A program made the translations under genes and the position numbers. This document shows positions 2,558 to 21,657 of a stretch of DNA of 23,943 bases, piece by piece (within the stretch, counting starts at the first letter, position 1; the number at the start of each line of letters is the position of its first letter). This stretch comes from a virus, in IMG/VR virus record IMGVR_UViG_3300046167_000165, positions 1 to 23,943 of that record. The stretch is one strand, 5' to 3'. The notes under the pieces are model-generated. The model was not told where the DNA came from. It made no database searches and saw nothing but the letters and a program-made list of their open reading frames with translations.

Positions 2558-2928
2558 TCGTCTATTTCATGTTCAGAATAAACGCCTGCGGTGTAGAAGC
2601 CTGCGAGTTTCAATATTGCACGCGATAAGGCCCTTTTTTCAGCCATGGCAATCGGGTAAGCGTTTCGGTTATTTGCTTTGCTGCTTTCGCCATACGTCTC
2701 CACTTGCCCTATTTCGCATTTTGCGTAGGCTTTAATGCAATATCTCCCCTCCTTTGGGTCTGAGTATTCCGCGACGGTAGAAAAGCGCACTGTGGCCTTT
2801 ATTTTGGCTTGTAAGTGCTCAACGCCTCGGCGCGTCATAATGACAAAGCCGCGCGGGTCTTTGTGGAAGTGATCAGGCTGCATATCATACTTCTCGGACA
2901 GCGCCCGCAGTTCATCGGTGTTGTTCAT
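2554..2928 (-). CDS. Unknown phage protein, possibly recombination-associated
   Basis: 124 residues. The N-terminal half predicts strands (GFVIMTRRGVEHLQAKIKAT, then VRFSTVAEY); a middle block covers CIKAYAKCEIG. The C-terminal part has NAYPIAMAEKRALSRAILKL followed by AGFYTAGVYSEHE. A run like AEKRA..RAILKL..G.Y occurs near the end of several phage single-strand-annealing proteins (Rad52/ERF-like) and in a Bacteroidota phage family of unknown function. I cannot tell these apart. Position between a primase-like and an SSB-like gene fits a recombination role. Both ends show 4-base overlaps. The gene is secure; the function is a guess. Confidence 0.6.
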   Translation of the reverse strand: MNNTDELRALSEKYDMQPDHFHKDPRGFVIMTRRGVEHLQAKIKATVRFSTVAEYSDPKEGRYCIKAYAKCEIGQVETYGESSKANNRNAYPIAMAEKRALSRAILKLAGFYTAGVYSEHEIDE

Positions 2929-3449
2929 GACTCGAATTTTAATGGTTTGACGTCGTAATTAATGAAGGGTGCATACCCTGAAGCAAAGCGCAGGCTGCTT
3001 AAATTGTTTGAAACGGGCACATCTACCACTACATTAAACTGTTCTTCAATTAGATCCATGACGCGGCTGGCCTTTTCCCTGTGGTTGTTTTGGTCGATGC
3101 CTTCGACTGCAACCAGCATATAACAACCCTCGCCCATGCAGCTAATGCCACCCGCTACAATGTAGGGCGCGGCCTCCATGTCTCGCGCTAAGTTCTCAGG
3201 ATCAAAGCCACCGCGTTGGTGCTTGCCGTCTATGTCAACCTGTACTAGACCGCTGTGCTGCTGAATCGTGTCCTGCCTGCGGCTGTAAAATACACCGTGC
3301 GGCATGATCGCAGGGAGCTGCTTCTTGTTGTAGTCGTTGATCATGACGTCAGGCCGTACGTGTTCGAGCCATTCCATTAGATACACGCGCCTCGTTTCGC
3401 GATCAAACGCGCCACGGCAGGAGCTTACTTGTATTGTTTCAACGTTCAT
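2925..3449 (-). CDS. BT4734/VirE N-terminal domain protein (primase-like)
   Basis: 174 residues. The visible pattern is that of the BT4734-like/VirE N-terminal domain: a KKQLPAIMPHGVF segment (residues 42-54), then QHSGLVQVDIDGK (64-76) with the paired acidic residues expected for a metal site, a glycine-rich GGISCMGEGCYMLVAV strand-turn (100-115), and a late FASGYAPFIN region resembling the usual closing motif. This domain is related to archaeo-eukaryotic primases and is common at the start of Bacteroidota phage and mobile-element replication proteins, often fused to a helicase. Here it stands alone, about half the length of the fused forms, with no helicase in the window. Likely role: priming or initiation of phage DNA synthesis. 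Confidence 0.72.
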   Translation of the reverse strand: MNVETIQVSSCRGAFDRETRRVYLMEWLEHVRPDVMINDYNKKQLPAIMPHGVFYSRRQDTIQQHSGLVQVDIDGKHQRGGFDPENLARDMEAAPYIVAGGISCMGEGCYMLVAVEGIDQNNHREKASRVMDLIEEQFNVVVDVPVSNNLSSLRFASGYAPFINYDVKPLKFES

Positions 3450-3997: not shown

Positions 3998-4027
3998 CAA
4001 AGATACGCAACTTATTTCGTTACGCAA
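3998..4027 (-). promoter_or_regulatory. Bacteroidota-type promoter for the early operon, with a TTGCGTA direct repeat
   Basis: Reading the minus strand, TTG (4027-4025) is followed by a 19-base spacer and TATCTTTG (4005-3998). This matches the Bacteroidota housekeeping promoter TTTG-N19-TAnnTTTG, with the -33 element reduced to TTG. TTGCGTA occurs twice, once over each element (4027-4021 and 4010-4004), 17 bases apart start to start, and could be a repressor operator. Transcription would run leftwards into the 87-aa gene, leaving a leader of roughly 25 bases. Confidence 0.75.
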
Positions 4028-11763: not shown

Positions 11764-14606
11764 ATCGTAATTCCGTAAAAGGTTGCCTGATTCGCTTCTA
11801 TTCCTGCGCGGTTGCTACTTTGGTTTGCTGTCCAAATAATAACCTCGGTAGTGTTTGCGTGAGTGCCTCGGTCGCGCGCGATATCGCCGCTTGTTAGGTA
11901 GTTGAATGTAGGATTCAAATCTAAATCTTCGCCCGTCGTTCCAAAAGTTCCAGCGCTTGTACCGTTAACATACCCGTTCGTTGGTGTTATGGTGTGCAGT
12001 TGCAAGTTTGTGCTAGATGTATAATTTACTGGATTGAGAGCCGCCTGAACACTAGAGGTGCCTAAAGCAAAGATATTGCGTGCAATCCAAAATTGTTTAT
12101 ATCGGTAGTCAAACGAACCACCCTCCTCGCCTATAAAAATTGCGCGCCCAATAGCGCTGTCAGAGTAAAACTTTGAAACAAGAGTGCAAGTAAAGTCACT
12201 AAGATTGATTGTAAAGCTTGGAATGTTCAAGCCTTGTACTCCACTTAATACATTCTCAACCGCAGGCTTTCCGTTCTCCGTCACCACGCCCGTACTTCCG
12301 TCGTAAATCTTTGGCATTTTGGAGGTCGTGGTTTGCGTCGCGTCGTTTGAGTTAGATGACTGGTCGTACCACTTCGATACAAACCCGTCATTTGAACCGC
12401 AGTGAGCAGCCAAGGCAACCGTATCGAGTTCACCGAATACGTTGAAGCCTATATCCGCGTAGCTGCTCCCGTTGTAAACCTCTACCGCGTCACCTGTGTA
12501 AGCCGTGCGAAGTTTACGCAGTGAATACGCAGCCGCTGCACCGCTGTACGTGTCGAGCAGTGGCGTGTTTTGGGTGAAGTAATCGCCCATGTTGCTTTCG
12601 ATGCCTGTGCGGTCGTTCGTTCTATCGTCTGAATAAATTATTAATTCTTGGCGGTTACCGACCCAGCTTCTAGTCAAAAAACGGTCTTTACTTATTCTAC
12701 TAGCTACGGCTGTGCCATCTGTGTGAATCATACTTAAAACATATTGCCCTGCGCTTCTTGCCAAAGTCGTAAGGTTAACGCTTAAACCATTTAAATAATT
12801 ATCGCCGTTTCTGACCACGGGGTCAGCGTGAGTTGCGCTCAACCACTCAGCTGAATTGCCACTATGATAATCGAAATTTGTACTATCCCCGAGGATAAAA
12901 CTCGAGTTACTATTTGTAAAGTCGGTAGGTCTTAATACAGAAAAAACACTATTGACGTTTGAGATTTGAGTGAAGTCAAAAGAGGTGGACGCTGTTGAAG
13001 TAAAAGCTACGCGCCCTCCATCCTTCACCAACGCGCCACCCGTGTAAATTGTCGGTTCGTTAGATGGTGCTGCCGCAGTCGCATCGTTCCCGTTTCCGCT
13101 TTGGTCTTTCCACTCGCTTACCGTGCAGCTTGTACCCGTGCAGAACGTTTCTATATCTGCCTCCGAGATGTTGCCTGAACCGTCAAAGCCAATTGTGGTG
13201 GTAGTGCTATCCGATGCTCTGCGAATGACCATGCAATCGGTTTGAGCAAATCGAAGTTGCCGCGTCGAATACGCTGCCTCTGCTCCACCTCCAAATGATC
13301 TGTCAAGCAAGTATTGAATAGAGCTAACCTCCTCCCATGTTTGAAACAACGTGAACGGTGGCACGCCATAGGTTGCGCCTTCCTCGAACGCGTCAAATAC
13401 CGCCACGGTATCCGCGTAAGCTGTATCGTCTGCAAAGGTGTGGATTAACGTGTAGTCGCCGATTACATCCGCATCAGTAATGAATCCAGTTTTGTGGTAA
13501 ATCTTACGTTTGATAACCTTGCCCGCTGCTGGTGTGTCGGGCGATGGATCAATGAAAATGCCGTCGCCTTCTGACTTTACAGAATATCCGCGCTCGGCGT
13601 ATATCGTTGCAATCTGTAACCCCGTCTCTACCTCATCTTCAAATCGGTTTGTATAGCTTGCCCGAGACTGAAACGCGCCCGCTGTAGTGTCATAAATCAA
13701 AGCCTGATTGCCTACGGGCGTGCCGACTATACTAACGTCGCTCAGGTCGTTTAAATCCGTAGGCACTGCGCTTGTATCGGCCTTTGCATTTAGTGCCGTT
13801 TGTGTTGCTGTGCTTACTGGCTTATCTGCGTCGCTTGTATTGTCTACGTTGCTAAAGTCGGCACTGTTCGCCTTAGCTGTTAGCTCGGTTTGGGTGGCCG
13901 TGCTTACGGGTTTATCTACGTCGCTCGTATTGTCAACGTTGCCTAGTCCAATCTGTGATTTTTGCAGCGTGTCGTTTGTCCATATATCACCGTCGTAAAA
14001 TAACACGTTGCCATCCTCTGGACCGCCCTGCTCAAATTGCACATCATCCAACTGCCCTAACTCAGTAACGCCGCCCGTGCCATCTGCTGGCTGCCATTCC
14101 TGTGCGGCTGCATCGTAGGCAATTACTTGGCCATCGGTTACGCCTGTGGTGTCAACGTCGTAAAGATCGCCAAGCTTTGCGCCCGTGACTGGTGTGCCCT
14201 GTGCAATCTCTACATCGTCGCGCTTGATCCGAAAAGTAAACGTTAGCACCTGAGCAAAGCGGCGCGGTGCGTCGATCGTGTCAATGTCAACGTCATTGAA
14301 TTGGATGCTCTCCACGTTCACGCCGTTGTATGTGCCGCTCACGCGATCCAGTGCGCCGCGTACCTTGCTGCCAAGATCAGCGGCGAGGGCATAGCTGTCA
14401 GCATAGCACAGGAATTCAAAGCGCACTTCGTCCAACGTACTCGGCCCGTCGTGCGTGTCTTCAGGCGCTACGCTCAACAGTTGGTAAACGATGAACGGCG
14501 TGGCGGTTTCCTGCTCTGCTACTTCAGGGAATATGTTGACGCCAACGATGTCGGTGACGTCTGTGTTTTGCGTTAATATTACATACGCGGCAATTCCTGC
14601 ATTCAT
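11760..14606 (-). CDS. Tail terminator (gp17/DUF3168-like) fused to fibre repeats and two lectin-like adhesin domains
   Basis: 948 residues in one open frame. Residues 1-130 look like the tail-completion/terminator family (gp17-like, DUF3168: TPFIVYQLLSVAPEDTHDGP, then LDEVRFEFLCYADSY, and an ending VLTFTFRIKRD). Residues about 146-310 hold fibre repeats: three LxDLxDV...YD...W units (near 145, 183 and 285) and two NVDNTSDxDKPVSTATQT units (223 and 253). Residues 442-678 and 690-944 are two copies of a domain of ~240 residues. Each has an AAYSxRxLR start, an IGF turn, a W(K/Y)DQSxNxNDAT core and an end with E(L/V)IIxxxxxxxxRxGIE. They resemble the concanavalin/arabinofuranosidase-like domains of Bacteroidota and phage adhesins. 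The fusion would attach host-binding arms to the top of the tail. A normal terminator is ~130 residues. Confidence 0.75.
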   Translation of the reverse strand: MNAGIAAYVILTQNTDVTDIVGVNIFPEVAEQETATPFIVYQLLSVAPEDTHDGPSTLDEVRFEFLCYADSYALAADLGSKVRGALDRVSGTYNGVNVESIQFNDVDIDTIDAPRRFAQVLTFTFRIKRDDVEIAQGTPVTGAKLGDLYDVDTTGVTDGQVIAYDAAAQEWQPADGTGGVTELGQLDDVQFEQGGPEDGNVLFYDGDIWTNDTLQKSQIGLGNVDNTSDVDKPVSTATQTELTAKANSADFSNVDNTSDADKPVSTATQTALNAKADTSAVPTDLNDLSDVSIVGTPVGNQALIYDTTAGAFQSRASYTNRFEDEVETGLQIATIYAERGYSVKSEGDGIFIDPSPDTPAAGKVIKRKIYHKTGFITDADVIGDYTLIHTFADDTAYADTVAVFDAFEEGATYGVPPFTLFQTWEEVSSIQYLLDRSFGGGAEAAYSTRQLRFAQTDCMVIRRASDSTTTTIGFDGSGNISEADIETFCTGTSCTVSEWKDQSGNGNDATAAAPSNEPTIYTGGALVKDGGRVAFTSTASTSFDFTQISNVNSVFSVLRPTDFTNSNSSFILGDSTNFDYHSGNSAEWLSATHADPVVRNGDNYLNGLSVNLTTLARSAGQYVLSMIHTDGTAVASRISKDRFLTRSWVGNRQELIIYSDDRTNDRTGIESNMGDYFTQNTPLLDTYSGAAAAYSLRKLRTAYTGDAVEVYNGSSYADIGFNVFGELDTVALAAHCGSNDGFVSKWYDQSSNSNDATQTTTSKMPKIYDGSTGVVTENGKPAVENVLSGVQGLNIPSFTINLSDFTCTLVSKFYSDSAIGRAIFIGEEGGSFDYRYKQFWIARNIFALGTSSVQAALNPVNYTSSTNLQLHTITPTNGYVNGTSAGTFGTTGEDLDLNPTFNYLTSGDIARDRGTHANTTEVIIWTANQSSNRAGIEANQATFYGITI

Positions 14607-15133
14607 TTCTTTTGCTTTTTTGCTTTCTCTCTCGCGGCCTTTCTTATCTGAAAATCATATTTCTTTTTCATAGCCGTTAACGCTGCGCCTCGCGTGTTTG
14701 CTATTGATCGCGCAAATAAACCTTTTTGTTTGTTGCCTCCAAACTTTTGGTCACCGCCCTCGACTATGTTGGCAAACCATCCATCGGCGTCTTTCGGTGC
14801 ACGCCTACCTACACGCGGCCCAACCCAAAAGGTACTGAAACGCTTGTCAATCTGCCAAACCTTTATTGATCGGCGCAGCGTACCCGTTTTAATATCTAAG
14901 CGCCTTGCCCTTTGCCCCTGCGTATTCGGATTACCTCGCGAGCGTCCTGTATGTTCCCTATCATTTCCTTTTTGTATAGGTTGCCAACGCTTCGATGAAT
15001 CCGTGTTTGCACCTTCGGATCGCTTACCTGTTTGCGCAGCTGCTCGAATTGCTTTCAGTAGCGGCTTTATGTCTGCGCCGATTCCTTCAAAGCCTACGCC
15101 GCTACCTTTGGCCTCAAGTGATCCCTGTGCCAT
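14603..15133 (-). CDS. HK97 gp10-like head-tail / tail completion protein
   Basis: 176 residues. The GTLRRSIKVWQ segment and the later FWVGPRVGRRAPKDADGWFA, with NIVEGG after it, are typical of the HK97 gp10-like family: the substrate strand, then the 'v.vGp' strand and '.a.w..f.E.Gt'. N- and C-terminal parts are strongly basic (KAAREKAKKQKK at the end). It is longer than the usual 120-150 residues because of a polar insert around residues 38-75 (SEGANTDSSKRW, REHTGRSRGNPNTQG). It lies between head-closure and tail-terminator genes, as expected, and overlaps both (31 bases and 4 bases). Confidence 0.75.
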   Translation of the reverse strand: MAQGSLEAKGSGVGFEGIGADIKPLLKAIRAAAQTGKRSEGANTDSSKRWQPIQKGNDREHTGRSRGNPNTQGQRARRLDIKTGTLRRSIKVWQIDKRFSTFWVGPRVGRRAPKDADGWFANIVEGGDQKFGGNKQKGLFARSIANTRGAALTAMKKKYDFQIRKAAREKAKKQKK

Positions 15134-15464
15134 GTGTTCCAGTTATTTCGCACAGTAAGATAAGCTGATCATTACGCCCAACTTCCTCAATGCCTTGTAT
15201 GGTGTACGTGTTGCTGTTGTAGATAACGCGGTCCGCTGGATTGATTGCCCGCGTGTCCGTGCTGCTGCGGATCTTAAAACGTAGCCGCTGCACTGGTGTA
15301 TCCTGATCGCCTGTTATCTTCTCGGCCATGCCTTCGCCTGCCTTCATCAGTTCAGCCCAAACCGTGACCAGCGTGGACCATGACGGCACGCGCTCGCCGT
15401 ACGCGTTGGCGCTGGTGGTGTAGCTCTGCACCTCTATTCGTCTGTCGCTCTGTCCTATCCTCAT
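15114..15464 (-). CDS. Head-closure / head-tail adaptor protein
   Basis: 116 residues of the phage head-tail joining family (SPP1 gp16-like): begins MRIGQSDRRIEVQSYTTSAN, then GERVPSWSTLVTVWAELMKA, RLRFKIRSSTDTRAINPADR and YTIQGIEEVGRNDQLILLCE. This is the usual run of strands with 'G....v.w..l..vwA.v' and 'y.I.gi.e...r...l.l.c'. It closes the portal vertex after packaging and gives the docking face for the tail. The start overlaps the connector gene stop by 4 bases and the end overlaps the gp10-like gene by 20 bases. Confidence 0.85.
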   Translation of the reverse strand: MRIGQSDRRIEVQSYTTSANAYGERVPSWSTLVTVWAELMKAGEGMAEKITGDQDTPVQRLRFKIRSSTDTRAINPADRVIYNSNTYTIQGIEEVGRNDQLILLCEITGTHGTGIT

Positions 15465-15682
15465 ACTGAAGTAATAACGCGGTAAGGGTTAAGTATAGCA
15501 TACAGGCCGAGCGGTAAGGTGGTAGCAATTGTACCCGCTACAACTGGCTGGCGCTGCTCGTATAGGTGCGCCACCATCCAACGGATCGCGGTAATGAAAG
15601 GCTTTGGTATATCGGCCTCGGCATATCCTACATTCATGTTAACCTGCACCGCGTTGAATGTGTCGTCATATAGATCGGGCAC
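15461..15682 (-). CDS. Head-tail connector (gp6-like), C-terminal part after a frameshift
   Basis: This frame holds 73 residues from its first GTG (MPDLYDDTFNAVQVNMNVGY...). It shows the C-terminal half of the gp6-like connector: a strand, a 'GYaeadIPkPf..AIrwmvahlYeqRqpv' helix and the closing PYRVITSV. It is not an independent gene: the frame continues upstream without a stop (...KWWADIKTKAARITFDSV) to the end of the 98-aa N-terminal part. The joined protein spans 15461-16028 and would have ~188 residues, the usual family size. The change of frame lies within CTAGCCGACAGC, around 15734-15742; removing one base there (for example one G of gg at 15741-15742 on the plus strand) restores one frame. 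Confidence 0.75.
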   Translation of the reverse strand: MPDLYDDTFNAVQVNMNVGYAEADIPKPFITAIRWMVAHLYEQRQPVVAGTIATTLPLGLYAILNPYRVITSV

Positions 15683-15731
15683 GCTGTCGAATGTGATCCG
15701 CGCGGCCTTGGTTTTTATGTCGGCCCACCAT

Positions 15732-16028
15732 TTAGCTGTCGGCTAGCGTCTGCGTGCTGTTCGCTGTGTCCGTGTACTGCACTGAGGTGATGGAATTGAC
15801 TGGACCGATAGGCAGGCGCACGTTATAAAAAAAGTCTATGTATCCAACGGCGTCAACATCACCGAGGCGCGTGTTACAATAGTCCTCAACCCACGCAATG
15901 GATGCATCGCGGTAGGCTTCTATTAGTGTATCCTCGTCTGTGTGATCAACTCTCAAATGCTCTTTGAGTTGTGCCACGGTTATAATGCTGTCAAGGTCGG
16001 GCGTGCCTGTTATTTCTACGGTCATCAT
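15732..16028 (-). CDS. Head-tail connector (gp6-like), N-terminal part
   Basis: 98 residues ending at a premature TAA (15732). The opening (SIITVAQLKEHLRVDHTDED) and the helix with YRDASIAWVEDYCNTRLG, then PIGPVNSITSVQYTD, are the standard N-terminal half of the gp6-like/DNA-packaging connector family, which forms the ring under the portal. The rest of the protein is found directly downstream in another frame (see 15461-15682). Its first two codons are both ATG (16028 and 16025). It is the first gene after the capsid terminator. Confidence 0.82.
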   Translation of the reverse strand: MMTVEITGTPDLDSIITVAQLKEHLRVDHTDEDTLIEAYRDASIAWVEDYCNTRLGDVDAVGYIDFFYNVRLPIGPVNSITSVQYTDTANSTQTLADS

Positions 16029-16045
16029 ATGGCTAAAATACGGAC

Positions 16046-16074
16046 AAAAAAAAGAGGGGCCGAAGCCCCCCTTT
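16046..16074 (-). terminator. Intrinsic terminator with UUCG loop after the capsid gene
   Basis: Minus strand AAAGGGGGGC-TTCG-GCCCCTC followed by eight T residues: a G+C-rich stem capped by the very stable C(UUCG)G tetraloop, then a T run at 16053-16046. It lies 28 bases after the capsid stop and 17 bases before the connector start. It should end or attenuate transcripts from the terminase-portal-capsid block, leaving capsid mRNA more abundant than downstream messages. Confidence 0.9.
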
Positions 16075-16101
16075 CACCAAACTATGCTACCAACCAAAAA
16101 A

Positions 16102-18309
16102 TCAATCAGGAGCTTGATTGCTGAGCTTAGTTGCTCGGCTCAATGCGCCGCCTTGTCGGATACCAAAGTCAAAGAAACGGTTAACGTGCAATGCAATCTG
16201 TGCCGTTGACGCGTTTGAGTATTGGTCAATCAAGATGTCGATGCCGCCAAAGTAAGCCAAGATGCCGCCCTGTTGGAAGTTTCCATAAATCATATTTCCG
16301 CCAACTGTTGAACCTCCCGCAGCTGCGTCAAGTGTTGAGTTGACCAAGTATGGAGTTGCTACGCCACGGTACATATTAAACAGGCCATTTTCCCAAACTG
16401 CATTCACATTAGCAACCTGAGCCAATGTTTTTGAGAATTCGTAAGCTCTTGGACTCATAACATACGCAGCACCTGCAAGGTTTCCACCAGCTGCAAGAAC
16501 AGCGGCCTCCATTTCGTTGGCAACCGCTTGCGTCAAAATTAAATCAGCTGAGTTGACGACATCAACATCAGTCGATGCCATAATAGCGTCAAAAGCGTAG
16601 TCGTCTACATAAGCGTTCATGGCTGCTGCCAACTCGTTAGCAATAAGCGCATCCACCTCTGCACCGCCCTGCAAAATCAATTGCTTGCTGTACTTGGTAT
16701 TAGCTGCAACTCGCTGCGGCGTCAAAGTAACGTCATCCATCTCCAAGCCTGAACCTGCATCGCCTGAAACTTCTGTTTCGTCTGTTCCAACTGCTTTGTT
16801 GCTTACACGTGGAAACTGCAAGTTACCTGTGGCGTTTCGAATTACTGTTGTGCCGAGTCCTTCCAATACGGTAGGGGCGCGCAGTGCTTCGATTGCAGCA
16901 GGTACAACAGTTGGAACGAATCCTGAACCGTCGCCGCTTCCTGCTTGGAAGTCGTCAGCAGCTCCAGCACGCAAAGCCACTGAAGGAATTGCAATCTGTC
17001 CAGCCATCTGTAGTCCTTGGCTTCGTGCCTCCTTGCTTGCCTCACTTGCCCACTCTGCTTCTGCACCTTCCAAGTTTCGGCCGTTTGCAACGGCAGCTAC
17101 TGCACGGCTCAAGCTGAAAGAACTATTAACGCGCTCAACTTCGCGTTGCTCGGATGCGCCAGCTGTTCCGCTCTGCGCCATTCGTGCAACCATGTCCTGC
17201 TCACGTGTTTTGTGCTTGATTTTGACGTCAAGGTCTTGCATCAAGCTGTCAAGCTTATCGCATCGCTCCTGCTCTGCTTCTGTCATAACGCGGCCCTCGC
17301 TGTCCGCCTTTTGGCCGATTGCAACAAACTCTTCATAGTTTGCATTGCGCTGGCCTTTCAAATCGTTTAAAGTCATCTTAGTAATGTTTTGCGTAAAGTT
17401 ACGCGGTTCTGTTTTTATCGTTTCAGGTTCTGCGCGCTTCTCCTCTACGGGTTCGGCTGCTACCTGTTCTTCTTTTAATTCCTCCACTTCCTGCGCCGCC
17501 TCTGCCATGTTTCGCGCGTAGACTGATGCCGTCGGGCTGGCTGGGTATGTAACCGCCGACGTGTCTAATAATTTGCCCACCTTGGTAATTGTTCGCGTGC
17601 TGCGGTCCTCGCTCCACGTATCCGAGTCAATTGTAAAAGCGAACGAGCTTTGTGTAATATCGCCGCGCTTGATAAGCTTGTAAAGATCGCGCCCGTCCTG
17701 CGTGTCGGCAAGTGCTGCACGATACTTTAAACCTTGGTCGTCTACGCTAAGTTCTAACGTGCCGTTCGTAGTTCGTGCCAATGGTGCGCCTGTGTGATTC
17801 AGTAAAAACCTTACATCGTCCTGCATTACGTCATCGAATGCGCCACGTGCTACGGTTTCTTTGAAGTATCCTAAATCATACTCCACATCAAAATTGCTCG
17901 CGTAGCCTTCGACTACCAAAGCATCATCGCCAGCGGCCCGCACTTCTGCCGTGCGTAATTCTACGCTGTCGCCGTATTGGCTGCGCAGTTCTTCCGTGCG
18001 CTTGTCTTCTTCTTCTTTCATTGCTTTAACTTTTGATTCACTCCAATTCAAAGCGGTATCACCGCCCCAAAGTAAATAACTAATTGTGCCGCACGCTTCT
18101 GTATCGTCGGGCTTGTAATATGTTCGGGCGCGGCTCAGAAAGCTGTACATCCTTTTGGTGCGTGCCTCGCTGATTGCTTCTTTGTTTGATAAGATCCGCG
18201 CGGTCTCTTTGCCTACCGCCGTCGCGCATTTTCCGCCTACCTCTTCATTGAGACGCAGGCCGCGCTTCGCGTTGTTTGTCATCGCCTCGGGGTACTTACT
18301 AAACGCCAT
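16102..18309 (-). CDS. Fused prohead protease - major capsid protein (HK97 fold)
   Basis: 735 residues in one frame, three parts. Residues 1-95 form an extra domain (NAKRGLRLNEEVGGKCATAV, EARTKRMYSFLSRARTYY, then GTISYLLWGGDTALNW), a block I recall from other phage structural proteins, function unknown. Residues 118-265 are an S78-type prohead protease: EGYASNF, catalytic His172 in FLLNHTGAP, Ser222 in TQSSFAF. A charged Glu/Lys linker (270-310) leads to the HK97 capsid part: delta-like helices (MTLNDLKGQRN from Met312), then TTVIRNATGNLQFPR and a C-terminal domain ending near RFFDFGIRQGG. An ATG for Met312 at 17376, preceded by an A-rich stretch, could also start capsid protein alone (424 residues, normal size). 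The protease start overlaps the portal end by 11 bases. Confidence 0.92.
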   Translation of the reverse strand: MAFSKYPEAMTNNAKRGLRLNEEVGGKCATAVGKETARILSNKEAISEARTKRMYSFLSRARTYYKPDDTEACGTISYLLWGGDTALNWSESKVKAMKEEEDKRTEELRSQYGDSVELRTAEVRAAGDDALVVEGYASNFDVEYDLGYFKETVARGAFDDVMQDDVRFLLNHTGAPLARTTNGTLELSVDDQGLKYRAALADTQDGRDLYKLIKRGDITQSSFAFTIDSDTWSEDRSTRTITKVGKLLDTSAVTYPASPTASVYARNMAEAAQEVEELKEEQVAAEPVEEKRAEPETIKTEPRNFTQNITKMTLNDLKGQRNANYEEFVAIGQKADSEGRVMTEAEQERCDKLDSLMQDLDVKIKHKTREQDMVARMAQSGTAGASEQREVERVNSSFSLSRAVAAVANGRNLEGAEAEWASEASKEARSQGLQMAGQIAIPSVALRAGAADDFQAGSGDGSGFVPTVVPAAIEALRAPTVLEGLGTTVIRNATGNLQFPRVSNKAVGTDETEVSGDAGSGLEMDDVTLTPQRVAANTKYSKQLILQGGAEVDALIANELAAAMNAYVDDYAFDAIMASTDVDVVNSADLILTQAVANEMEAAVLAAGGNLAGAAYVMSPRAYEFSKTLAQVANVNAVWENGLFNMYRGVATPYLVNSTLDAAAGGSTVGGNMIYGNFQQGGILAYFGGIDILIDQYSNASTAQIALHVNRFFDFGIRQGGALSRATKLSNQAPD

Positions 18310-18844
18310 CGCTCGAAACTTTATCGGAATACGCGCCTAGCTTATCCAGTGCGATTTGATTAACCTGCACCGTGTGCGTGTCGCCTCCGTCCGTTGGGTT
18401 CATATCTTCCTTGCCCCTGACTTCGTTAATACTTAGCACGCCGTTGTTTAGCATCTTAGTATAAAAGTCTGCGCGGCTTTGCATATCGCCTCGGTACAAA
18501 TCGTTGAGGTTAAACTTGCTGTATATCTGTGGGCGCTCACGTGACTGGATTAGCTTTCTGTCTATCTCCTGCTCGATGCGCTTGGCCCAAGGTGCAATCG
18601 TGTGCCGTGCAAATTGTAGGTTTTGCTGTTCAACATTGTTGTATGTTGTTTGGCTTTCTAGCTGTACCAACGTAGGCGGCACGCTAAAAATGCGGCATAT
18701 CTCTTCAGCCTGAAATTTGCGCGTTTCAATGAACTGCGCTTCGTCGGGGCTGATGCTTATACGCGAATACTTAAAGCCAAACGGTAGCAACTTAGTGCCT
18801 GCTTGCTGTGCGGCCTTGTTCCAACTGCCTTGGATTATATCCAT
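18299..18844 (-). CDS. Portal protein, C-terminal part after a frameshift
   Basis: Carries the C-terminal half of an HK97-type portal: SWNKAAQQAGTKLLPFGFKY, ETRKFQAEEICRIFSVPPTL, then NNVEQQNLQFARHTIAPWAK, all standard stem/wing/clip blocks of the family. The listed start (MDIIQGSW) is an internal Met, not a real start. In the intact protein the sequence continues from the 233-aa part as ...LKK-EQMDIIQGSW. One extra base at 18850-18851 (GG for G on the minus strand, in AAAGGAGC) separates the two. Joined length is 397 residues, normal for this family. Confidence 0.85.
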   Translation of the reverse strand: MDIIQGSWNKAAQQAGTKLLPFGFKYSRISISPDEAQFIETRKFQAEEICRIFSVPPTLVQLESQTTYNNVEQQNLQFARHTIAPWAKRIEQEIDRKLIQSRERPQIYSKFNLNDLYRGDMQSRADFYTKMLNNGVLSINEVRGKEDMNPTDGGDTHTVQVNQIALDKLGAYSDKVSSDGV

Positions 18845-19493
18845 CTGCTCCTTTCTTCAAAGGCTGATCGCTGGATAGTATCCCCGTCATTTGCCCGCCG
18901 CTGCCAAAGTATTCAGCGCCAAAGTCCTCGGCGCTTTTGGCTAGTCCTAAATTCTCACGGTGCAAGCGTATCGGTGACTTTCTTTGTAGGTTGCAAATCT
19001 CCAGCATATTCTCAGGCTGAACAATGCCCACATTGCGCACGCTGTAAACTATCTGCCCGTTGACGTTTTTGCGGTCTACGTCGTATATGTCCAAACAAAC
19101 AAGGCTAGTAACATAGCCACGTCCGTCGCGCTCAATCAGTGCATAGCCAACGCCGTTAATGACTGCATTACTTATAACGGTCTCCCAAAAGTCAAACGCC
19201 GTTTGATATTCGTTAGGCTTGTATTTTATAACGTCATAGGCTGGATGCACATTCGCGGGTTCTATCTCGCGGCCTGTGCGCTCATATACCTCAAGATCTA
19301 AACTCGCCAAAGTGCTGGCGATCTTATAGACGCAGGCGTAAACCGTCGAGATTGTAAGCGCGGTATTCTCGTTGATATTCGCACCGCTTACCGTAGTGCC
19401 GTAAATACCTAAGTCGTTCGCCAAGGTCTGAGAATCGTACTTGCCTACGCGATACCTCAAAAGCGCGTTTAATCTGTCGCGAAGTGTTGCCAT
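18792..19493 (-). CDS. Portal protein, N-terminal part (frame broken)
   Basis: The first ~213 residues belong to an HK97-type portal: ENTALTISTVYACVYKIAST, LASLDLEVYERTGRE, ...KPNEYQTAFDFWETVISNAV..., and the LVCLDIYDVDRKNV region. The tail of this frame (after LSSDQPLKK: GADGYNPRQLEQGRTASRH) is out-of-frame readthrough caused by the one-base insertion at 18850-18851. The portal is the dodecameric channel for DNA entry and the docking site of the terminase. The start ATG 19493 lies 15 bases after the terminase stop. Confidence 0.85.
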   Translation of the reverse strand: MATLRDRLNALLRYRVGKYDSQTLANDLGIYGTTVSGANINENTALTISTVYACVYKIASTLASLDLEVYERTGREIEPANVHPAYDVIKYKPNEYQTAFDFWETVISNAVINGVGYALIERDGRGYVTSLVCLDIYDVDRKNVNGQIVYSVRNVGIVQPENMLEICNLQRKSPIRLHRENLGLAKSAEDFGAEYFGSGGQMTGILSSDQPLKKGADGYNPRQLEQGRTASRH

Positions 19494-19508
19494 ATGGCTT
19501 GCAATTTA

Positions 19509-19793
19509 CTACAATGATATTATATCGAAATTCTGTTCAAGCTCCTGCGGCGTCTTCATGTGTTCGCCTATGCCCATAACCATGGCCACAATCGGATCAA
19601 TCTTACCGCCGCTCTTTTGTTTGTCGGCTTTTATGTTGCCAGCTGGGTCCATTTTTAGATCGACATTACCAAGCGCCCAACGTAGTACAGGGTCGCCATC
19701 ATGCCACACCTTGGCCGTTCGTACTAAAACCTCCAGTTGTTTGGTAGGTGACGACATTGACACAAAGCCCTGACCGAATGGCGTCAAGGGCAC
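19509..19793 (-). CDS. Terminase large subunit, C-terminal nuclease fragment
   Basis: The open piece after the last frame break, 94 residues (MPLTPFGQGFVSMSSPTKQL...). It shows the last part of the terminase nuclease: 'ls.ptk.le.lv...kvwHdGdPvlrWalgNv', then GNIKADKQKSGGKIDPIVAM with the final catalytic aspartate. The Met shown is an internal codon. The true preceding frame supplies ...FDRYNSTQIAIDLVDDG. Confidence 0.8.
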   Translation of the reverse strand: MPLTPFGQGFVSMSSPTKQLEVLVRTAKVWHDGDPVLRWALGNVDLKMDPAGNIKADKQKSGGKIDPIVAMVMGIGEHMKTPQELEQNFDIISL

Positions 19794-20091
19794 GCCGTCG
19801 TCAACCTAAGTCAATCGCGATCTGTGTGCTGTTGTATCTGTCGAAAGCAATCTTTTCTATTTGATACTTATGCATCAGGCTGCTGCCGTCTACCTCCTGA
19901 CCGTCAGGCCGATTCATGACGCCACTGACTAGCCTACGAATCGCTGCGTAGTCTGTTACGTTGCCATCTGTCACGTGAAAGTTTGGAGATCTAAAAACGT
20001 GCGGTAGATATGCGACGGCTCGCGGTCCAGTATATTGTCAATTGTATCGCTGGGCATAAAGTAATGGCCGCGCACGTGGTAGCCTTCGCCG

Positions 20092-20955
20092 TCAGGGTAC
20101 ACCATAACCAGCGCCGTCATATCCGAAACGCTTGCAAGGTCCTAGCCCGCCCCAACAGATCCGCCCCGTCAAATCCTCCTGCCGTTCGTTAGCGCTCCAT
20201 ATTTCATCCTGTATCCAAGTCTTTGAGGCGGTCACCCATTTGTTTAGGTGCTTGGTTTTAAATTCTACTTCGCGCGATCCGCCTAGGTTAATGGCTTGCT
20301 GTAACTGTGACTCCAATAGCTGCGGGCGTAGCGCCACGCCCAACGATGGGTTCGCCTTTATCCATGTGCTGGAGTCCGTCCAGTCGTCATCTTCGTCCAG
20401 CTCATAGATCAACGCAAATTGTGCATCATCGTGCTTCACCCCGTCGAGTATTTCCTTGCACGTCTTTTGCATTTCGTAGCATGGAGATTCACGGTTAAAG
20501 CCTGCCGTGGTGATTGTAAGGTGTAACGGGTTACGCCGCGCCTGCATACCTGATCGTAAGACGTTCGCCACGCCATCGGTAGGGTGCGCGTGGTATTCGT
20601 CAATCCCTGCAAAGTGTATATTGAGGCCGTCGAGTGTGTCGCGTTCGCTACTTAGGTACGTGCATCGCGCTGAGAGCGTCGGCGCTTTAATGTCGTGCTT
20701 CCCTGCTCTAAGGTGTTTACGGAGCGGCGGCGAGATTGAAACCATCCTTTGCGCTTCGTCGAATCCGATCTTTGCTTGGTCTTTCTTAGTTGCTGCAAAA
20801 TAAACCTCAGCAGCTTTTTCCTGATCAAAGAAAAGAGCAGCGAGCGCACAGCCCGCCATAAGTGTCGTCTTACCATTCTTCCTAGCAACCGTAATATAAG
20901 CATAGTTAAAGCGTCTTGTGCCGTCCTCACGAAACCACCCGTAAAGATTCCACAA
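20092..20955 (-). CDS. Terminase large subunit, ATPase fragment
   Basis: The longest intact piece, 287 residues, beginning at a TTG that is really an internal Leu codon (FILWNLYGW). It holds the whole ATPase: Walker A VARKNGKTT (residues about 23-31), a coupling segment (FAATKKDQAKIGFDEA), Walker B and catalytic Glu in IHFAGIDEYHAHPTDG, and the ITTAGFNRESPCYEM motif III region. The last 18 residues (after CWGGL) are out of frame; the corrected frame there gives DLASVSDMTALVMVYPDGEG, the start of the nuclease domain. Confidence 0.88.
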   Translation of the reverse strand: MWNLYGWFREDGTRRFNYAYITVARKNGKTTLMAGCALAALFFDQEKAAEVYFAATKKDQAKIGFDEAQRMVSISPPLRKHLRAGKHDIKAPTLSARCTYLSSERDTLDGLNIHFAGIDEYHAHPTDGVANVLRSGMQARRNPLHLTITTAGFNRESPCYEMQKTCKEILDGVKHDDAQFALIYELDEDDDWTDSSTWIKANPSLGVALRPQLLESQLQQAINLGGSREVEFKTKHLNKWVTASKTWIQDEIWSANERQEDLTGRICWGGLGPCKRFGYDGAGYGVP

Positions 20956-21195
20956 TATAAACTGTTGCCATGGAAGTGGATCAAACGGCTTGCCGTCCCA
21001 TTCGCCTACCGTGTGCCTGATTGCCCTTTGAAAAAATGTAATGTAAGCCTGTGCAGGTCTTTGGCTTAAACTCTAGACCCCGCTCCTCTGCTGTGTCGAG
21101 ATCCGGTGAGGTATCGTTGGCACGCCTTGGCTACATATTTGGCCGCTGGTATTTTGCCCGTAACTACGTCAAGAGCGTAATTGTGCCCAACGCTG

Positions 21196-21559
21196 TCAAG
21201 CATCTTTGAATGTTAAGAGCTGCTCAAGTTCATCGTCCATTTCAACCTCGACTTCAATGCGCTTACGTGCGGCTGGTGTCATGCCTAATTCCTTTGAGCA
21301 CCACCAAATACTTTGATCGTGACTCAACTAACATCTGATGCTCTGGCCTGTGCTTCGTCATCGTGCCGCCGTCCCTGTTTTTAAATTCGTAGGTATATCC
21401 TTTTTCGTCAATCAGGCTTTGAAGTTCGCGCACCTCAACTGCTAAACAAGCGGCCATTGTCAACAGGTCTTCATCTAGTTCGCCGATGTGTCGAGCGCTG
21501 CGCAGTGCGTTCTTTATCCGCTTGTATTCAAGCTTCTGCGTGTCTGTAAGTACGTCCAT
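21196..21559 (-). CDS. Terminase small subunit (P27-like), frame broken near its end
   Basis: Starts at ATG 21559 (MDVLTDTQKLEYKRIKNALR); the longer upstream frame is non-coding. The helical body and the 'Y.fknrdGgtm.khrPehq....' region identify the P27-type small terminase. As written the frame reaches a stop at 21263 after 98 residues. An extra G at 21291-21292 (AAAGGAATT) causes this; without it the protein continues LKELGMTPAARKRIEVEVEM to a stop at 21196, 120 residues, with the LGMTPAAR motif normally found at the family's C-terminus. It recognises viral DNA for packaging. The corrected stop overlaps the large-subunit ATG by 8 bases, which independently supports the correction. Confidence 0.85.
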
Positions 21560-21562
21560 GCT

Positions 21563-21570
21563 CAAAGGTA
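21563..21570 (-). promoter_or_regulatory. Candidate -7 element of a late promoter, leaderless arrangement
   Basis: Minus strand TACCTTTG matches the Bacteroidota -7 consensus TAnnTTTG and ends 3 bases before the terminase small-subunit ATG. Transcription would begin at or near the A of that ATG, giving a leaderless mRNA. The -33 region at the correct distance is only T-rich, with no TTTG, so a phage activator or a weak promoter is possible. Confidence 0.4.
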
Positions 21571-21657
21571 GCGCCAAAACGCAAAGAAAAAAATGAAATA
21601 ATTCGCCATGGATACTACGGCGATGCAGGCGCTTTTTGCTCAGGTTTTTGCGGGGGG

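Follow-up and report, generated by a model that had tools for sequence, protein, structure and literature searches.

Clustered single-base frame breaks in the late genes of a 24 kb tailed-phage record are very probably residual consensus errors

Viral genomes assembled from long reads are known to retain single-base errors. According to the VirION study, a mock viral community assembled from long reads alone carried a mean of 474 indels per 100 kb before polishing and 22.78 after it, and PacBio subreads are described there as enriched in insertion errors (PMC6487183). The present analysis concerns a 23,943-base viral contig (the window). Compared with its relatives, the window contained 10 single-base insertions and one single-base deletion, all between 14.89 and 21.30 kb (6.4 kb), in genes that the changes as recorded would inactivate for packaging and head formation.

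The record is a tailed-phage genome of about 24 kb. Its late genes, all on the minus strand, encode an HNH endonuclease, the small terminase (PF05119), the large terminase (19510–21200; PF03354 and PF20441, the latter being the nuclease domain), the portal protein (PF04860), a fused prohead protease and major capsid protein of 735 codons (16102–18309; PF04586 and PF05065), a gp6-like head-tail connector (PF05135), and the head closure, major tail and tape measure proteins. The two ends of the window (1 and 23941) adjoined inside another contig, L160, with four bases between the matches, so the window is probably a near-complete and circularly permuted genome of about 24 kb. Its ends were classed as linear by end-type assignment. 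Among annotated phage records there was a single short match, which covered 1% of a 6.5 kb query at 79.7%.

The nearest relatives were 3300047359_000596 (L009), with 97.2% DNA identity over 16873–21640 of the window, and 3300047359_000471 (L176), with 97.2% over 13021–17041. Both differed from the window in that the corresponding genes were unbroken. Against these two contigs the capsid gene (16110–18300) showed seven silent differences and no amino-acid changes. So few silent differences, compared with 73 in the large terminase, suggest that mosaic exchange may occur among these phages.

Relatives were collected with large terminase (best 80 of 596), tape measure (52 loci) and capsid (70 loci) queries. 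Loci belonging to the same contig were combined using a manually prepared list, L190–L269 (from bacterial genomes) were left out of the counts, and alignments shorter than 300 bases were dropped before counting. In the strictest count, the reading frame to the left of a site was compared with that to the right in the DNA alignments of contigs spanning both sides, and those differing from the window by the identical frame change were scored. The identity cut-off was 70% in this count, in the first of two earlier counts and in a fixed-interval count, and 75% in the second earlier count and in the baseline described below. The number of DNA relatives fell below three in seven parts of the window, which ranged from six to 511 bases and together made up about 2.1 kb.

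Eight one-base breaks in terminase, portal and connector genes had been claimed in an earlier note, which proposed a comparison with related phages at these positions. With this comparison all eight were confirmed by DNA alignment, with 55 to 68 relatives per site and no exception. The small terminase contained an extra base at 21291–21297 (about 21294; 55/55 relatives). Near the start of the large terminase there were two, at 21103–21107 (about 21105; 60/60) and 21054–21058 (about 21056; 62/62). Further into this gene, an extra base at 20141–20145 (about 20142), a missing base at 19984–19990 (19986) and an extra base in the nuclease domain at 19805–19808 (19806) were each opposed by 68/68 relatives. 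The portal gene was split by an extra base at 18850–18856 (18853; 56/56), with PF04860 matched by both pieces, and the connector gene contained one at 15732–15743 (15740; 55/55).

As a full tally, the eight fell short by three extra bases, all in the gene at 14603–15133 on the same strand. Two single bases were added at 14893–14906 (about 14893–14905) and one at 15050–15053 (about 15051), each place with 42/42 relatives. Together the three make up one codon, and the 176-codon frame therefore stayed open and escaped the first reading, while about 48 residues in between were misread. Since an open frame can hide a misread stretch of this kind, an intact length would by itself be no proof of a correct sequence. 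The 735-codon gene, taken by the earlier note for an intact flank, was indeed unbroken; it lies inside the affected stretch and not beside it. No shared frame break was found in it in either of the earlier DNA counts. In the part of its frame at 18020–18309, the first 78–96 residues were unmatched in many relatives, in which the matches started at residues 79–97.

The breaks were absent from all relatives compared (42 to 68 per site), and the earlier counts led to the same result. The first gave 59/59 at each of 21294, 21105 and 21056, plus 3/3 in which 21056 and 21105 were merged, followed by 69/69 at 20142, 68/68 at 19986, 69/69 at 19806, 65/65 at 18853 and 58/58 at 15740. The event near 15051 was scored in 41/43; the remaining two contigs, L055 and L057, also showed the change. 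The second count gave 57/57 at 21294, 59/60 at 21105 (one contig was unscored), 60/60 at 21056, 41/41 plus 26/26 at 20142, 66/66 at 19986, 67/67 at 19806, 58/58 at 18853 and 53/53 at 15740. In the gene at 14603–15133 it gave 36/36 for a net two bases at 14893–14906 and 36/36 at 15050–15053. Counting net length in fixed intervals was mixed at 19986 (44 as expected, 24 not) and at 21056 plus 21105 (40 and 22), because nearby gaps enter or leave the interval. The strictest count was run to settle this ambiguity and gave no exceptions at any site.

Exact strings across the breaks at 21294, 18853 and 20142 were found in no other viral contig in a search from which records very near the window were possibly omitted. 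The unbroken form of the 21294 string, serving as a control, was present in two viral contigs.

A protein-level search over 23,864 bases of the window listed the known sites (21056 and 21105 merged) and no break outside the affected stretch. It also listed events in contigs G005, G008 and G011. Its counts were set aside in favor of the DNA frame counts, as many spans contradicted the listed sites. At 19991, for example, two spans were for the break and 91 against it, an effect of pieces from all frames being included in the protein library. An event of this search at 16062, between genes within the affected stretch and with 18 relatives for and 18 against, was left uncounted, as was one of the second DNA count at 3998 for which two of two relatives were too thin a sample.

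If 11 sites were placed at random, the chance that all fall within 6.4 kb would be about 2e-5 analytically, and this occurred in one of 200,000 simulations, for an interval that was chosen post hoc. Within it the errors were patchy; the stretch between 15740 and 18853 was clean, and about a quarter of the genome was affected.

In an alignment to at least one close relative, about seven of the 10 insertions can be explained as the doubling of a single base, in most cases G or C. The earlier note had counted at least five cases of G read as GG. This is possible, with the qualification that the exact inserted base is often ambiguous in alignments to close relatives, at several sites because the relatives use different synonymous codons. 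The window contained 35 long single-base runs, of which 24 were inside the genes used (23 of these were compared) and 11 outside them. None of the 11 changes was inside any of these runs. This argues against homopolymer slippage, and an error of that type was disfavored; it may point to an insertion-rich platform. All relatives changed frame near only one compared run, located at 21031 and separated by 20 bases from the 21056 break. Near some other compared runs, part of the relatives changed frame; at 2537, next to the end of a gene, five of 10 did so.

The state of selection on the broken genes was estimated from silent versus amino-acid-changing differences against the nearest relatives. 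For the large terminase these were 73/10 against L009, 56/10 against L005 and 63/12 against L010; counted by codon against L009, 71 were silent and five changed, one of the latter being 1–2 bases from a break. The portal gene gave 27/0, 33/11 and 46/1 against the same three contigs, and the small terminase gave 4/0 (L009). In the connector gene the ratio was 4/1 (L176), and the sole change was 1–2 bases from the break. The gene at 14603–15133 gave 8/3 (L005), 13/0 (L010) and a weaker 20/13 (L176). For comparison, the unbroken capsid gene gave 5/0 (L009) and 111/54 (L005), and the unbroken replication protein gave 10/9 (L009). Conservation at the protein level was found on both sides of each break, and was weaker for the gene at 14603–15133 against L176. 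By these ratios, the broken genes are under purifying selection and at least as constrained as the unbroken ones. A gene dead for long enough to collect several indels should carry many changing substitutions. Long decay thus seems unlikely, because the evolution of the broken genes is still that of functional ones.

How often such events occur in related records was estimated from a baseline of 142 related contigs (566 kb of coding sequence), in which only events that persisted for 30 bases and lay more than 40 bases inside a gene were kept. There were 10 frame events in seven contigs. Five of these were in two contigs of metagenome 3300046167, and those of L115 and L008 at 14644 resembled alignment ambiguity near a gene end. 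In the literature searched, no mention of this metagenome number was found.

The two contigs, 3300046167_000333 (G001) and 3300046167_000376 (G002), were like the window in having private single-base insertions on which relatives agreed, at positions that differ from those of the window. Several of them read as one base becoming two in local alignments. Over its full length, G001 contained five insertions with all relatives agreeing (57/57, 14/14, 25/25, 62/62 and 21/21) and three further events with few relatives (5/6, 5/6 and 3/3). In G002 the extra bases numbered three, with a pair at one position (62/62) and a single base elsewhere (4/4), and there were two additional events of opposite sign, one where the capsid frame ends (15/18) and one with 5/6. 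In the loci L270 and L271 of G001 and L272 of G002, the private single-base insertions included some in portal and capsid genes; in G002 others were present in the region of the tape measure, with a split frame there. The third contig of this metagenome, G003, showed no such events over its full length. Two of the three contigs thus had private insertions, and their tie to the window is one of signature only.

Private frame events also occur outside 3300046167, and four of seven full-length contigs of other metagenomes carried nine in total: two in G005 (5/5 and 3/3), five in G008 (5/5, 5/5, 8/8, 5/5 and 11/11, the last one 40 bases from the record end), one in G010 (2/2) and one in G011 (8/8). 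The other three, G004, G006 and G007, had none over their full length. These nine events were mostly supported by few relatives or were of different sizes. Two of them were single extra bases, both in G008, where they lie inside one open frame together with a 17-base difference. At 2815–3320 of the G008 locus L284, a cluster of frame events against 5–8 relatives was seen near and inside a 219-codon open frame, and may reflect either divergence or error. Among the ten records, only G001 had a single extra base with at least 14 relatives agreeing; next came the two-base place in G002.

We interpreted the frame breaks as residual consensus errors in the assembled sequence that are not present in the phage, and regarded this as very probably correct. 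Five lines of evidence favor it: the absence of the breaks from every related contig compared, the purifying selection still seen in the broken genes, the ratio of 10 insertions to one deletion, the lack of changes in long single-base runs, and the comparable private insertions found in two of the three contigs from a single metagenome. The earlier note had named consensus error as the likely cause, and these lines bear it out. The assembled sequence would carry 11 residual errors, 10 insertions and one deletion, over 14.89–21.30 kb. Their source may be an insertion-prone, PacBio-like long-read method, with too few reads or incomplete correction across the affected stretch. In the phage itself, the terminase, portal and connector genes are most likely intact. 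Against this interpretation stand the events in four contigs of other metagenomes, the clean contig G003, the clean stretch at 15740–18853 and the weaker ratio of the gene at 14603–15133 against L176.

The alternative in the earlier note, a prophage losing its packaging ability first, belongs to a reading in which the phage or prophage is truly defective and its packaging genes were lost by mutation. Such a reading accounts for the location of the breaks in packaging and head genes, which they would inactivate. It is disfavored by the lack of any sign of relaxed selection in the terminase, portal and connector genes and by the 10 to one excess of insertions, since natural decay usually favors deletions. 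A prophage would moreover be expected to show an integrase or host flanks. No integrase was found among the open reading frames scanned (a few small ones were outside the scan), and the adjoining of the window ends in L160 is as expected of a complete phage genome. Among the best 80 of 103 loci from species-representative bacterial genomes, large terminase identity did not exceed 46%. We considered a defective phage or prophage very unlikely. Indels of very recent origin, on the other hand, would leave an identical selection signal, and the insertions do resemble one another, as they would if a burst of real insertions, caused by a mutator or by some insertion process not yet known, had struck a genome that is now dead and happened to be sampled. 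With 11 changes in one genome and none in its relatives, this would have to be an extreme event, and the comparable private insertions in two contigs from a single metagenome are in keeping with a technical cause. Such a burst appears extremely unlikely. Similarly improbable to an extreme degree is a hitherto unknown process of biological origin by which single bases, predominantly G or C, are added in clusters to late genes of these phages, leaving freshly dead genomes, of which G001 and G002 would be further cases. Finally, breaks in essential genes would need some read-through, which programmed ribosomal frameshifting or unusual decoding could provide by restoring the proteins. The close relatives encode the corresponding genes in one frame, none of the compared relatives has the breaks, and by eye the sites lack a common slippery sequence; we regarded this reading as vanishingly improbable.

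Residual consensus error, the preferred interpretation, makes the finding an ordinary one, mainly a warning about data quality, and its use lies mainly in quality control. In such records, gene calling breaks up the terminase and portal genes, which are common phage markers, and the records could pass for defective phages. Comparison of frames with many relatives detects these records without reads, including errors that cancel in frame.

The VirION study (PMC6487183) worked with MinION reads, and the platform behind the window may differ; the insertion bias may point to a PacBio-like one, in view of the insertion-enriched PacBio subreads described there. The window also differs in that only about a quarter of its genome is affected by the errors. 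As in that study, the errors are frame-breaking single-base indels that would have been incompletely removed by polishing. The density in the window, 11 in 23.9 kb or about 46 per 100 kb, is of the same order as the values given there, 22.78 per 100 kb with polishing and 474 without it.
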